From IMG/VR virus record IMGVR_UViG_3300020401_000047, positions 1-34,435 of that record: DNA of 34,435 bases; one strand, given 5' to 3'. Of this stretch, positions 10,099 through 26,700 are shown in pieces. The notes under the pieces are model-generated. The model was not told where the DNA came from. It searched no databases and saw nothing but the letters and a program-made list of their open reading frames with translations. This stretch comes from a virus. Within the stretch, counting starts at the first letter, position 1. Every line of letters starts with the position of its first letter. The position numbers and the translations under genes were made by a program.

Positions 10099-10530
10099 TT
10101 AGTCTACGTTGAAGTTTATATTCACGGAAGTATTGCTAGTCTTAGGCGCATCAACTCTGAGTCCAGCACGATCCATCAGATCTCTACTTGCTTCCAGTCT
10201 TACGTGTGCTGACTTTGCATTGAGCAGTTCTCTCATAGTTGCCAATGCCTGTGTTGCGTCCCAACCCAAGCAGTTCATTGCTATCTGCTGTCTGTACTCC
10301 ACAACATGAGGCTTTGCAATGGTTTTGTATGCCCATGCCTTGTTCCTACCTAACCTCTTTGCTCCCTCTGTGGGGTTGCAACCATCATGCAACATTGCGT
10401 GTACTAATTCAGCCTGTGCTTCTGTTATCTGTTTGTGATTGGGTAGTAGCAATTCACTATGCTTTTGTATATCCTCTAACGGAACTATTGACCCTTGGTA
10501 TCGTTGCTGTTGTTCGTTACTTGCTTTCAT
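10099..10530 (-). CDS. terS: Probable terminase small subunit
   Basis: This is a 143-residue protein, first gene of the leftward late block. The central ITEAQAELVHAMLHDGCNPT, then EGAKRLGRNKAWAYKTI (about residues 36-70), reads as a helix-turn-helix that would bind the packaging site. It is followed by a helical oligomerisation-like region (ATMRELLNAKSAHVRLEASRD) and a short beta tail. This layout is typical of small terminases, and the large terminase lies one gene away. A plain DNA-binding regulator is the alternative. The ribosome-binding site is weak. Confidence 0.65.
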   Translation of the reverse strand: MKASNEQQQRYQGSIVPLEDIQKHSELLLPNHKQITEAQAELVHAMLHDGCNPTEGAKRLGRNKAWAYKTIAKPHVVEYRQQIAMNCLGWDATQALATMRELLNAKSAHVRLEASRDLMDRAGLRVDAPKTSNTSVNINFNVD

Positions 10531-10547
10531 GAGGCAGCTCTTATTAT

Positions 10548-10562
10548 TACTCTACGAGAGTA
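10548..10562. promoter_or_regulatory. 15-bp dyad overlapping late promoter -10
   Basis: TACTCTACGAGAGTA is a perfect inverted repeat with 6-bp arms and a 3-base centre. It overlaps the proposed -10 box and the expected transcription start of the leftward promoter. This is a classic place for a repressor or activator site. It could equally act as a 5' hairpin on the mRNA. The XRE protein at 16993-17229 is a candidate ligand, by inference. Confidence 0.45.
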
Positions 10563-10589
10563 TAACCATAGGTGCTATATCAATGTCAA
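10559..10589 (-). promoter_or_regulatory. Sigma70-like promoter of leftward late block
   Basis: On the minus strand, a perfect TTGACA (10584-10589) is followed after 19 bases by TATACT (10559-10564), or after 18 bases by TTATAC. The spacing is slightly long. Transcription would start near 10552 and give a leader of about 20 bases before the small terminase ATG at 10530. With no phage RNA polymerase gene seen, the host polymerase would use this promoter. Confidence 0.5.
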
Positions 10590-10621
10590 TTCACATTTGT
10601 AAGTCTTTGTTATTACGAATG

Positions 10622-10657
10622 AATATGAGGTGGCATTGAGCCACACACATTCATATT
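10622..10657. other. Hairpin 1 of the divergent region
   Basis: Inner arms GTGGC (10630-10634) and GCCAC (10640-10644) enclose a 5-base loop. Outer arms AATATGA (10622-10628) and TCATATT (10651-10657) extend the stem across a 1-base/6-base internal loop. Confidence 0.45.
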
Positions 10658-10716
10658 GTTCTACAACAATCCCTTTCATCACATTCCCTGACAGGGGTCT
10701 AAGTGATTTTAATATT

Positions 10717-10732
10717 ACGATTTGCAAATCGT
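10717..10732. promoter_or_regulatory. Perfect 16-bp palindrome
   Basis: ACGATTTGCAAATCGT is a perfect palindrome without a spacer, so a double-stranded protein-binding site is more likely than an RNA hairpin. Candidates encoded here are the ParB-like protein and the XRE regulator. It does not resemble the well-known bacterial parS consensus. Confidence 0.5.
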
Positions 10733-10780
10733 TAGCCTTTTGCTTCCCCTAAAGAAGTCAGCAAAAGTTAATTCGATGCA

Positions 10781-10813
10781 GAATAATATGTGCTTCATGG
10801 CACGATATTATTC
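10781..10813. other. Hairpin 2 of the divergent region
   Basis: GAATAATAT (10781-10789) pairs with ATATTATTC (10805-10813), and GTGC (10790-10793) with GCAC (10800-10803). The loop is TTCATG and one G is bulged. That is a 13-bp stem in 33 bases, with no T-tract after it. Confidence 0.55.
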
Positions 10814-10883
10814 TTTACTCATGTCCACGTACTGTGATTGTGTAACACGATATTGCATGGGGTAGCCCCCACGCTTCAATCGT

Positions 10884-10920
10884 AGAAGTTTGTTGTATTC
10901 CTACGGAAGTACAAACTTCT
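10884..10920. other. Hairpin 3 of the divergent region
   Basis: AGAAGTTTGT (10884-10893) pairs perfectly with ACAAACTTCT (10911-10920). Inside it, TTCC and GGAA around TAC can pair again after a small internal loop. The result is a two-helix RNA-like hairpin of 37 bases. Confidence 0.55.
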
Positions 10921-10933
10921 CTGTTCGTAAGAA

Positions 10934-10965
10934 TTTTGTCTGACGTGAAGTACGTCAGGTCAAAA
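10934..10965. other. Hairpin 4 of the divergent region
   Basis: CTGACGT (10940-10946) pairs with ACGTCAG (10952-10958) around loop GAAGT. TTTTG (10934-10938) pairs with CAAAA (10961-10965) across a small internal loop. The total is 12 bp in 32 bases. As RNA on the plus strand it lacks a following U-tract. Confidence 0.55.
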
Positions 10966-11060
10966 CCGTGTCCCACTTTCTAAGAACAGGCTTACTACTA
11001 CTACTACGTTCTGCACTGCTCACGTACCGAGGAGCTATACCACACCATACAACCCCTACA

Positions 11061-11105
11061 GAAATGCGACTTACTGTGCTGTATGAATATTACCCCTCGC
11101 ATTTC
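11061..11105. other. Hairpin 5 of the divergent region
   Basis: GAAATGCGA (11061-11069) and TCGCATTTC (11097-11105) are perfect 9-bp inverted repeats around a 27-base loop. Confidence 0.45.
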
Positions 11106-11111
11106 TTAATC

Positions 11112-11175
11112 CTTTCTAAGTTCGTCAAGATAAACTTTTTCGTGAAGAACGAAAAACTGGACGAACTGAAGAAAG
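11112..11175. other. Nested three-helix hairpin of the divergent region
   Basis: CTTTCT (11112-11117) pairs with AGAAAG (11170-11175), AGTTCGTC (11119-11126) with GACGAACT (11160-11167), and TTTTTCGT (11136-11143) with ACGAAAAA (11149-11156) around loop GAAGA. That gives 22 base pairs in 64 bases, in one coaxial order. Such nesting by chance is unlikely. A structured small RNA, 5' leader element or origin structure are all possible. Confidence 0.6.
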
Positions 11176-11280
11176 TATCTCTGGGGGTTTCCTTGGTGTG
11201 AATCGTAACCACAAGTGAGCAGTACAAAACGCAGTAGGTAGTGCTTTAATATCAATAACTGTACAAAAGGAGATGTTACA

Positions 11281-11520
11281 ATGAAACAGTTAGATTTATT
11301 TATCAAAAGCCAAGCAAGTGATCTAGAGGTACTTGATGATATGGTATCGTATCAGAATACTTCAACAGTTGATCTACTTGATACAGAATATCGTATGCCA
11401 TTCAGGGAGCAGAAGCTACCATCTAGTCAGCTAGACTGGGATATACAATGTGCTATCGAGGCTGGTGATTGGGATCGTGTCCATGAATTGAATACAATCA
11501 AGCATGACATGAGCAATTAA
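11281..11520 (+). CDS. First rightward early gene, unknown
   Basis: This 79-residue acidic protein is the first gene after the divergent region. AAAAGGAG lies about eight bases before the ATG, a strong ribosome-binding site. The sequence is rich in Asp, Gln and Leu (QLDWDIQCAIEAGDWDRVHE). No domain is recognised. First early genes of phages are often small host-takeover proteins. That is a positional inference only. Confidence 0.7.
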   Translation: MKQLDLFIKSQASDLEVLDDMVSYQNTSTVDLLDTEYRMPFREQKLPSSQLDWDIQCAIEAGDWDRVHELNTIKHDMSN

Positions 11521-20287: not shown

Positions 20288-20649
20288 TTTTTCAACTTTG
20301 CTATTGATTTAAGACCAAAGGAAGCTGCAATTGATGCAAGTATTCCGTAGCTCAGCCAATCAGGGCAATCCTCTCTTAAAAATTTAAAGCCATCTGATAT
20401 ATATGGCTGAAGTGCTGGTATGAAACAAGCAACTATCAATATAATAAAAGTAATGGTCCAAGCCTCGTCTTTCCAGCTGTTATCAGAAGCGTCCATTGCT
20501 TTTTCGTCCCATGAACCTTCTTGTTCAACTCTTTTAACTTGTGCTTGTACTTTTGCAACTTCTAATTGTTGCTTGGCTTTGGCTTTCTCTTGTTTGCCTT
20601 GAAGCCAAGTTGTAGCAATATTTGCTATCGGACCTAATAGTTGTATCAT
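20284..20649 (-). CDS. Probable holin, GTA-type 3TM family
   Basis: This 121-residue protein has an N-terminal helix with Lys/Gln-rich sequence (QEKAKAKQQLEVAKVQAQVK) and two clear hydrophobic segments at about 64-85 (WTITFIILIVACFIPALQPYI) and 99-115 (SYGILASIAASFGLKSI). The WKDEAWT motif before the first membrane helix matches holins of the 3TM type known from gene transfer agents. It is coupled to the endolysin gene, which supports pore formation for its release. Confidence 0.82.
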   Translation of the reverse strand: MIQLLGPIANIATTWLQGKQEKAKAKQQLEVAKVQAQVKRVEQEGSWDEKAMDASDNSWKDEAWTITFIILIVACFIPALQPYISDGFKFLREDCPDWLSYGILASIAASFGLKSIAKLKK

Positions 20650-21116
20650 ATTATTCCTTTCTTTTTAGCAATGATAGCAAGTACTGTTACAACACCAGCT
20701 AACAAAGCAGTTATCAGTATTCCTAAAACTATTTTAAGAATCAAATCTTTTATTTCTTCTTGTCGTTTTTTTTGTTTTAATGCAGCTTCTTTTCTAGCCT
20801 TTCTTGCCTCAGAACAATAACGTTGGTAATCTGTCCATAAACCAGCCCTACCATATAACTGCATATATTCTCTAAGTTTATCATGCTTAACTCTTATTTG
20901 TTCTAATGCCATGAACTCTTCTAGATCATTATCAGTTTTACCTGACAAATTAGTCCATAAACTATTACGTTTTTTATGTAGATCTTTTTGTAATTCATCT
21001 TCAGCAGCTACAAAACGACTTATTGCATTACCAGCTGATGCTATATCTTTTCCATTTTCTAGTGTTTGTTTGATGACAGCGAAGGCACTATTTGCAATCA
21101 TTAGCATTTCAAGCAC
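20646..21116 (-). CDS. Tail-anchored coiled-coil membrane protein in lysis region
   Basis: This 156-residue protein has a long helical body (residues 1-125, with YGRAGLWTDYQRYC in the middle), a Lys/Arg/Glu-rich stretch, and one hydrophobic C-terminal segment (IVLGILITALLAGVVTVLAI). The start is a GTG at 21116 with GAGG seven bases upstream; ATG 21107 would have poor spacing. Its place before the holin suggests a lysis role. I cannot identify a spanin signature. Confidence 0.65.
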   Translation of the reverse strand: MLEMLMIANSAFAVIKQTLENGKDIASAGNAISRFVAAEDELQKDLHKKRNSLWTNLSGKTDNDLEEFMALEQIRVKHDKLREYMQLYGRAGLWTDYQRYCSEARKARKEAALKQKKRQEEIKDLILKIVLGILITALLAGVVTVLAIIAKKKGII

Positions 21117-23751: not shown

Positions 23752-26700
23752 CTATGAAGGACCAGCATATGTTTCAACTTTAATAACATAGTTTCCACCA
23801 CCTATGTATGTTCCAGCATTTTTAGTTATCCTAAATACATTATTGCCAGGGGAACTAACTGACCATGAACCACCACCTGATGAAGTAACATTTTGTATAT
23901 TATGAGTTGACACAACACTGCCAAGATACATTCCAAACACAGCTATTCTAGAAGCACCATAGTTTTGTATAGCATGATGGCTATAAAAAGCAGTAAGCAT
24001 AGTGGCACCAGCACTTGATATATCAGGTACATCTATTGAAATTGAAGCATTATTTAATACACTACCTCTAAAATAATAGACAAATGCACCATTGTATTTA
24101 ATTAAACCAGTAGTGCTTGTGATAACCATACGTTCTGATTCATTAGTACGAATCTTTATATCAGTAGGCACAGTGGTTGATGAAGTGCCGTTTTGCACTA
24201 CATTTATCTCAGCGCCAATATCTGAAACATTAGAAGTATTTACACCTCTAAATTTAACTGAACCTAATGATTCGCCATCTGCTGTTGCTGCAAAGTTACC
24301 ACTATCTGTTGATGATTTTTGTAAAACTATAAATGGTTCATCACTATCTGTTGTTGATCTAGTTAAAAGTGATAAAATAGAGCTTCCAGCAGATGTCGCA
24401 ATGCTTAACTTACCACCATTTACTTGAGAAGATTCTCCGATAGAAACAAAATCAGATCCTCCATCTACAACTAAAAGATTGGGATCGTTACTACTCTCAA
24501 CACGAAAGTCTACATCTGCTGCATCTTCATTGAATACTGCACCACCTTTGGCATTTAAAGCACCAGTAAGTGTAGCTGAGCCACCTGATATAGCTCCAGT
24601 TGTTGTGATGGTACTTGAACCAACATCAATATTACCAAATCCACTTGTTATTGATCCTGAATCTAATGCACCAGTTGTAACTAAACTTGAACTACCAGCT
24701 AAAGGACTTAATGTTGATAAGTCTATAGTTGTAAATGTATTATCGCCTCTTAGGAAAGTTGTGTTGTTTTTAGTGCCAGTACCTATTCTTGCTATTGGAA
24801 CTGTACCACTTGCTAAATCACTAGCATCTAAATTTGTTAAATTAGCTCCACTTATAGCTGGTAAAGTAGCTGGGAATCTAGCATTGGGTATTGTGCCAGC
24901 ATTAATATTGTTTGCATTTATTGCAGCAACATTGAATGTACCAAATGCAACAATATCGACTGTATCACCATTTGATAATGCATTAGCAAAAACTACAGAA
25001 GTACCTGATGTAACAGTCACATCAGTACCATTTACTTGTTTCACACCATTTAGGTAGACATCAATGAACCCAGCATCATATGCTAATGTTTCTCCATTTG
25101 CTTCTGCAAAGCCAGTTCCTGATGCACCTGTCAATGTTGTAGGTGTTCCAGTTATATTATATGTAAATCTAGCAGAAGTTCCATTAACAGTTGACCCAGC
25201 AGCTGCCCAACCACTTGATTTATATACTTTTAATTCATTTGCTGTAGTGTCAAAGTAAAGATCACCTATATCTAATGACGAGGTTGGTGCTGAACTTGCT
25301 ACTCTATATCTATCAGCAAAACTATTTACACCTGAAATATTTGATGCAACAGTATTCACGTTTGATATTGACCCACCGACATTATTAACATTTGTAATAG
25401 AGCCAGCTACTGTTGTGATATTTGTGTTTGCACCAGCAACTGTTGTGATATTAGAATTTGCAGATGCGACAGTATTAACATTGGAGATTGATCCAGCAAC
25501 TGTGTTAACATTAGTTAATGCACCACCAACTGAGTTTACATTAGCAATTGAACCAGCTACTAAAGATATATTGCTGTCTTTTACTGTAATGGTATTACCC
25601 ATACCATTTCCATGTACATAACAGTAATATCTTAATCCAGATGATGGTGCTGTAGTCGCAACCTCTATCTGTATTTTTCTATCACCTGATGATCGGCCAG
25701 CATTAAATGTCGTTGTATTAACGTAGTTTGACTGTGTAGTTGCAGATCCATTTAGAAAGTAAGTAACCCCAACTTCATAAGCAGAACTGCCATTTTTGAA
25801 CACAAGTGGGTGTCCATCATTAGTCGCATCATTCTGATTGAAGATATATGTGTTACCTCTAAACATCTCAATAGCTGGTGCATTAGCACTATCAAGAACA
25901 AATACGTTACCAGACCCAGGGTTTGCAACAGTAACTGTATATGTTTTTTCAAGAGAATTAGCTAACGATGTAATATCACTTGAAATTGCAGCTAATGTAT
26001 TTAAATCAGATACTGCATCAGATGTACCAAGTATTGCAACATTAGAGGCTACTCCTGACACATTAGATAAATGGGTTTGATTTATACCAGCGACTGTTGT
26101 TACGTTTGAAGATATTCCAGCTACTGTCGTTACGTTAGCCGAAATCCCAGCAACAGTAGTTACATTACTAGAAATACCAGCGACTGTTGTGACGTTGGCT
26201 TTTATGTTTTCAACTGCTGCAATGTCACTTGATATACCAGCAACAGCTGTAACGTCACTAGCAATCCCAGCTACTGTAGTAACATTTGCTTGAATGCCAG
26301 CGACTGTAGTAACATTACTTGCAACTCCAGCAACTGTAGAAACATTGCTAGCAATACCAGCTACAGTCCCAACATTCGAGGCTATGCCAGCCACAGTAGT
26401 TACATTTGCACTAATTCCAGCTACTGTATTAATATTAGCTGATTGTGCTGATACTGTTGTAATAGAACCAATAGATGGGCCAGCTTCTGCTGCTCCTGTT
26501 GTTGCGTTGAATGCTAATACATTACCTTTTCTAGCAGCTTTATTTGGTAATGATATTTCACTTGCATCATCTGATTCTGCCATTGTTAATGAACGAGAAT
26601 TTTTATTCTCAATTTCTTGCATAATTGCATAAATTTTATCAAGATCTGTATTCAAGCTTGATATATTAAATGGACCACTAGTTGCAAAGTCACTTGTTCT

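Follow-up and report, generated by a model that had tools for sequence, protein, structure and literature searches.

The only long gene-free region of the circular phage record IMGVR_UViG_3300020401_000047 probably holds a previously undescribed large phage RNA, whose relatives keep their fold through two-sided changes and swaps of parts. The record comprises 34,435 nt, with ends that overlap by 77 bp, and its full length is referred to here as the window. We propose with moderate confidence, based on comparison of related sequences, that a large structured noncoding RNA is specified by the minus strand of the gap, and that it would be read toward the small terminase gene (TerS) and act as a free-standing molecule. 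We read the element as a large structured RNA because its stems covary, its unpaired motifs are fixed, a long-range helix closes one of its domains, and its domains are exchanged between phages.

A structured gap between the two transcription arms

The inter-arm gap (10531–11280, with the element assigned to the minus strand) fits exactly between TerS (10099–10530, minus strand), which the element always adjoins, and the first rightward ORF, a small ORF at 11281–11520 on the plus strand. It is the longest stretch of the window without a plausible gene, so that the original prediction of tandem hairpins in the only long gene-free region, between the two transcription arms, was correct in its coordinates. 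The late operon (25 kb) lies directly downstream of the element on the same strand. Among annotated phages, Pelagibacter phage EXVC031P Hodr is the closest relative (TerL 54%, TerS 33%), and the capsid protein also matches HTVC010P-type pelagiphages at about 24%.

With a strong local hairpin defined as a gapless stem scoring at least 9 with a loop of at most 45 nt, the gap contains 10 such hairpins compared to 1.6 per dinucleotide shuffle, and 20 relatives together contain 103 compared to 29.5 in shuffles. The predicted series of at least eight inverted repeats is thus real. Folding of the whole gap gives z-scores of -5.7 for the plus strand and -11.5 for the minus strand, and none of 20 shuffles is as stable on either strand; the proposed control with shuffled sequence therefore yielded both fewer hairpins and weaker folds. 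When z-scores are computed for 200-nt tiles along the whole window, the gap contributes five of the top six. Several of the hairpins had been described as lacking terminator T-tracts, in agreement with a single terminator-like site in the gap where 1.1 are expected, and an array of terminators was rejected on the same count. The picture of separate tandem hairpins holds only in part, as long-range helices, for example 10994–11023 with 11215–11242, close a branched domain.

Two further features were observed elsewhere in the window. A strong long hairpin on the plus strand (20501–20700, z -5.6, 200 shuffles), in which GTTGTAGCAATATTTGCTATC pairs with GATAGCAAGTACTGTTACAAC, is located where two leftward genes meet, shortly past the point at which the two arms converge. 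Tandem 30-nt repeats resembling VAGISSNVTTVAG (25349–26442) lie within the gene of a 1082-amino-acid tail protein.

Covariation in related phages

Scans with TerL, TerS, and a 228-amino-acid ORF yielded 55 distinct related gaps of 503–1583 nt, all positioned between TerS and the rightward arm, directly upstream of TerS; some of the longest extend to the second rightward gene and may contain a small ORF. Gaps holding the element span roughly 500–1200 nt in close relatives. RNA-strand alignments were built for the window type (type I, alignment A1) and for a second type (type II, alignment A2), with pairs predicted by RNAalifold. In A1, two-sided changes occur in 29 of 145 pairs (89 cells), compared to 18.4 and 29 in shuffles, and in A2 in 23 of 81 pairs (48 cells), compared to 11.3 and 14.8; none of 500 shuffles reaches either result, and these counts are not to be read as probabilities because the related sequences are not independent. 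When the partners are slid by one to three columns, pairing falls from 94–95% to 37–53%, a contrast that is overstated since the same alignments had served to predict the structures. In type II, the slid controls retain 5–8 pairs with two-sided changes compared to 23 in the real alignment. The stems of the relatives thus vary in sequence yet stay paired, and the covariation check that had been suggested for the hairpins is clearly positive, from which we conclude that the structures are under selection.

One gap differs from both types. It lies beside a TerS 80% identical to that of the window (L136, 2420–2922), carries neither 5' domain type and no linker, and is possibly a third element type.

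Architecture of the element

The proposed RNA of about 620 nt occupies 10619–11242 on the minus strand, with its 5' end near 11242 and its 3' boundary near 10619, both inferred from conserved helices. Read 5' to 3' on this strand, a 5' domain closed by helix P1 is followed by a 3' domain of hairpins, about 30 bp, a promoter-like site, and TerS. All features below are on the minus strand except where stated.

The 5' domain of the window (10994–11242, type I) is closed by the 25 pairs of P1, which joins 11215–11242 with 10994–11023. Within it, a two-tier hairpin (11119–11167) consists of an outer stem AGTTCGTC/GACGAACT with compensatory changes and an inner stem TTTTTCGT/ACGAAAAA, separated by a conserved internal loop that reads GUUYAUCUU / CAG on the RNA strand. 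A second hairpin (11060–11106) pairs AGAAATGCGA with TCGCATTTCT, replaced by AGAAATGG/CCATTTCT in relatives, and a long-range helix connects 11041–11047 with 11194–11200, with two-sided changes in four of its seven pairs. The 3' strand of P1 contains the linker CGUAGUAGUAGUAGU (10994–11008, RNA strand; the CGUAGUAGUAGU linker), which is invariant, present in both element types, and forms the junction of the exchangeable 5' and 3' domains.

The first subdomain of the 3' domain (10921–10989) has an outer stem CTGTTC/GAACAG and a nearly invariant UUAGAAAGUGG-ACACGG, and encloses the inner hairpin TTTTG-T-CTGACGT-GAAGT-ACGTCAG-GT-CAAAA. It is followed by the hairpin AGAAGTTTGT..ACAAACTTCT (10884–10920), represented in relatives by AAAACTTTG/CAAAGTTTT, ATAACTTTG/CAAAGTTAT, and AGAACTTTG/CAAAGTTCT, and by a stem ATCGT/ACGAT around the hairpin GCATGGGG-TAGC-CCCCACGC (10847–10883; ATCAGGGT/ACCCTGAT in relatives). 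Further along, the hairpin AGAATAATAT..ATATTATTCT (10780–10814) is replaced by AGAACATAA/TTATGTTCT and AGAATGATAT/ATATCATTCT in relatives, and a perfect 16-bp palindrome without strand assignment, ACGATTTGCAAATCGT (10717–10732), gives way to another short hairpin in some of them. The last hairpin (10619–10654) reads ATGAATATG-AG-GTGGC-ATTGA-GCCAC-ACA-CATTCAT, with ATGATTATG/CATAATCAT and ATGGC/GCCAT as its counterparts in relatives.

Two interchangeable 5' domains and a conserved core

The 5' domain exists in two interchangeable types. A type II domain is found in a phage whose TerS is 98% identical to that of the window (L110), and in three chimeras (L014, L058, L088) the linker connects a 5' domain of type II with a 3' domain of type I. 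The type II domain is organized by the predicted long-range helices P1 (CUACGGAAUUGUA/UACAAAUUCGUAG), P2 (GGCUUAUC/GAUAGGCC), and P3 (AAUNCCCC/GGGGGNUU) of the minus strand. Its internal loop corresponds to a circular permutation within the type I hairpin (AAAAAGUUCAUCUUGAC versus AAAAUCGUCUUUGUCGA); as a link between the two loops this is suggestive only. In two gaps (L005 and L055), we observed a hairpin with a GAAGA- or GAAGT-like loop in up to five copies per gap, its stem often bearing a T/GT internal loop, which resembles a small mobile or duplicated module.

The core hairpin of type II has the form AAAAU-CGUCUUUGUCGA-(variable stem)-GAGCU-AUUUU. As a DNA pattern it occurs in 43 viral contigs and in none of 84,980 bacterial and archaeal species, each represented by one genome. 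In the divergent contigs that were checked (TerS 32–34% identical), the core always lies directly upstream of TerS on the same strand, and it remains nearly unchanged at this distance. Its unpaired motifs UCUUUGU-N-GA and GAG are conserved while the stems vary, and the flanking stems covary across 21 sequences (48 two-sided cells versus 18.0 in shuffles, reached by none of 500). A covariance model of the core recovered one more divergent copy (L103), in which the altered loop-closing letters appear compensatory, and gave no match in Hodr, HTVC010P, Greip, or the window. The gap of Hodr, a cultured relative (L079, 3585–3921), is strongly structured, with z about -6 on both strands, and has a TTGACA-17-TATACT site beside TerS; it is not shown to be the same element because the core model gives no match there. 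The gaps of Greip and MEP301 have little or no structure.

Element type and TerS sequence are thus decoupled, as the type switches at 98% TerS identity and the core is kept at 32–34%, which speaks against a role in tight co-evolution with TerS.

Strand, transcription signals, and alternative functions

Each strand is significantly structured, and the signal is larger for the minus strand, along which the terminase and structural genes are read. Against conservation-preserving column shuffles, RNAalifold gives z-scores of -12.4 (type I) and -7.7 (type II) for the minus strand, compared to -8.5 and -5.4 for the plus strand. In helices selected irrespective of strand, the wobble cells number 83 for the minus strand and 43 for the plus strand, and the type II long-range helices contain frequent G-U pairs. 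The window type is more even: its local stems are almost purely Watson-Crick, the helices common to both strands have very few wobbles, distributed symmetrically (14 versus 16 cells), and single-sequence folding scores better on the minus strand in just 14 of 20 cases. Raw wobble counts from single sequences (81 versus 68 and 26 versus 32) were uninformative and were discarded as a strand criterion. Confidence in the minus strand is thus good in type II but moderate in the window.

These near-perfect, strand-symmetric stems are also what a DNA-level element, or one functional on both strands, would display. Here, the hairpins, extruded or in single-stranded DNA, would constitute a replication origin or primosome-assembly region for the host replisome, or a terminase recognition (cos/pac) site beside TerS, a reading we regard as unlikely. 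Cos and pac sites often lie beside TerS, as the element does. Furthermore, the phage encodes recognizable recombination proteins (SSB, a RecE-like exonuclease, a Sak-like annealing protein, and, weakly, a RuvC-like protein), and the proteins tested yielded no polymerase, primase, or helicase. The minus-strand preference in RNAalifold and in the type II long-range helices weighs against such a function, as does the change of type while TerS stays at 98% and the persistence of the core while TerS falls to 33%. DnaA boxes are absent from 10531–11280, with four in the whole window where 7.3 are expected by chance. GC skew changes sign at about 11 kb and 20 kb, where gene orientation switches, and not at replichore midpoints; because these changes follow gene orientation, they provide no independent sign of an origin. 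The replication origin or packaging site offered in the original prediction thus finds no specific support.

A promoter scan of 28 gaps revealed a consistent site only upstream of TerS. In the window, it occupies 10559–10589 on the minus strand, ahead of TerS and the late operon, with a -35 box TTGACA (10589–10584), a spacer of 19, and a -10 box TATACT (10564–10559); nearly all members have TTGACA or TAGACA, TATNNT, and the same spacer length. Conserved ATGTGAAT and CAANGRCTTA precede the site, the fixed 19-bp spacer is unusual, and the spacer often holds a short dyad, such as ATAGCACCTAT, reminiscent of activator-twisted (MerR-type) promoters. In the same scan, the stretch where the RNA is expected to start (11242–11300, minus strand) showed no conserved sigma-70 promoter, and the plus strand no conserved rightward promoter; no terminator was found at the 3' end of the element. 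Since the 5' end has no conserved sigma-70 promoter, DNA-level and cis-acting explanations stay alive.

The cis-acting explanation, in which the element heads the late transcripts as a put-like antiterminator or a leader switch of the 25-kb late operon, is improbable in our assessment. Its fixed synteny, directly upstream and on the same strand as a long operon that the host polymerase must traverse, would suit this role, and strict synteny over great divergence could also indicate a role in cis. In nearly all members, however, the promoter-like site separates the element from TerS, so that transcripts starting there would lack the element, which is moreover far longer and more variable than the put sites of about 70 nt.

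A structured pre-primer RNA resembling ColE1 RNA II, which would form an R-loop and be extended by the host polymerase, has a very low probability. It would accord with the phage's apparent reliance on host replication, with the position of such a long structured element next to the divergence point, and with the lack of any recognised initiator among the proteins tested, but the gap matches no Rfam family and nothing in our analysis places a replication start there. Least probable of all is that the gap serves the rightward (early) operon from the plus strand, as its 5' leader or antitermination region. This could explain why that strand is also significantly structured and why boxB-like U-GAAGA-A hairpins, with GAAGA loops closed by U-A that match the lambda boxB pentaloop in letters, occur there, but the plus strand has no conserved promoter, the minus strand scores better in both types, and many of the loops read GAAGU, a sequence incompatible with the GNRA-like fold.

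A proposed modular RNA beside the terminase

In our preferred reading, a free-standing minus-strand RNA, the window would be transcribed leftward into a molecule of about 620 nt with two exchangeable domains. The CGUAGUAGUAGU linker provides the 3' strand of the long helix that closes the 5' domain, and the 3' domain is formed by successive hairpins. Rather than a leader of TerS, it may be an RNA complex or a host-factor-binding RNA made during infection, like GOLLD or ROOL, and domain swapping may reflect changing partners. Among the functions originally proposed, small RNAs come nearest; the element is better described as one large modular RNA of about 600 nt than as several small RNAs or layered operators.

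We tentatively propose, with confidence just short of even, a new class of large phage RNA whose 5' and 3' domains recombine at an invariant linker and which would act in trans in infected cells. Its carriers would be uncultured marine phages of a lineage related to the pelagiphage Hodr, which keep the element beside the terminase. For small host-dependent phages, this suggests that constraint on the seemingly empty divergence region can exceed that on their proteins.

Comparison with known RNAs

A search of all Rfam families gave no match in the gap of the window up to E = 1, and eight related loci gave nothing at the gathering score; two weak matches, both outside the gap and far below the gathering score, were rejected. 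Annotated phage genomes contain no DNA similar to the window segment or to either element type, and the pelagiphage papers examined for noncoding or intergenic features report none in the region beside TerS.

ColE1 RNA II is likewise long and structured and belongs to a replicon dependent on host polymerases, but the element has no match to the Rfam RNA I family. The pRNA of phi29, which is linked to packaging functions, shares with the element a conserved fold in a drifting phage RNA sequence; the motor here is TerS/TerL, there is no Rfam match, size and architecture differ, and the element type is decoupled from TerS. The put RNA of HK022 resembles the element in that it forms stem-loops ahead of an operon and belongs to a phage dependent on the host's RNA polymerase. 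It is about 70 nt long and acts in cis, as part of the 5' end of its target operon's transcript; the element spans hundreds of nucleotides and has a conserved promoter-like site downstream.

The closest likeness is to GOLLD and ROOL, large ornate phage RNAs that form Rfam classes of their own and have no known function (PMC12286853). Like these, the element is phage-encoded and combines a length of about 600–800 nt with an elaborate covarying secondary structure (PMC12286853); its covariation extends over hundreds of nucleotides and includes long-range helices, as expected of large structured phage RNAs. It differs in having no match to the GOLLD or ROOL covariance models (up to E = 1 in the window, and at the gathering score in the eight loci), in its fixed site upstream of TerS, and in the exchange of whole domains. 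GOLLD and ROOL are often found near phage tRNA genes, whereas the window contains no tRNA or tmRNA gene. Few large structured phage RNAs of this kind are known, and their functions are poorly understood; if our reading is right, the element would add an independent class beside GOLLD and ROOL in marine phages related to a pelagiphage, one in which dozens of variants and domain swaps found in nature allow structure and function to be tested.
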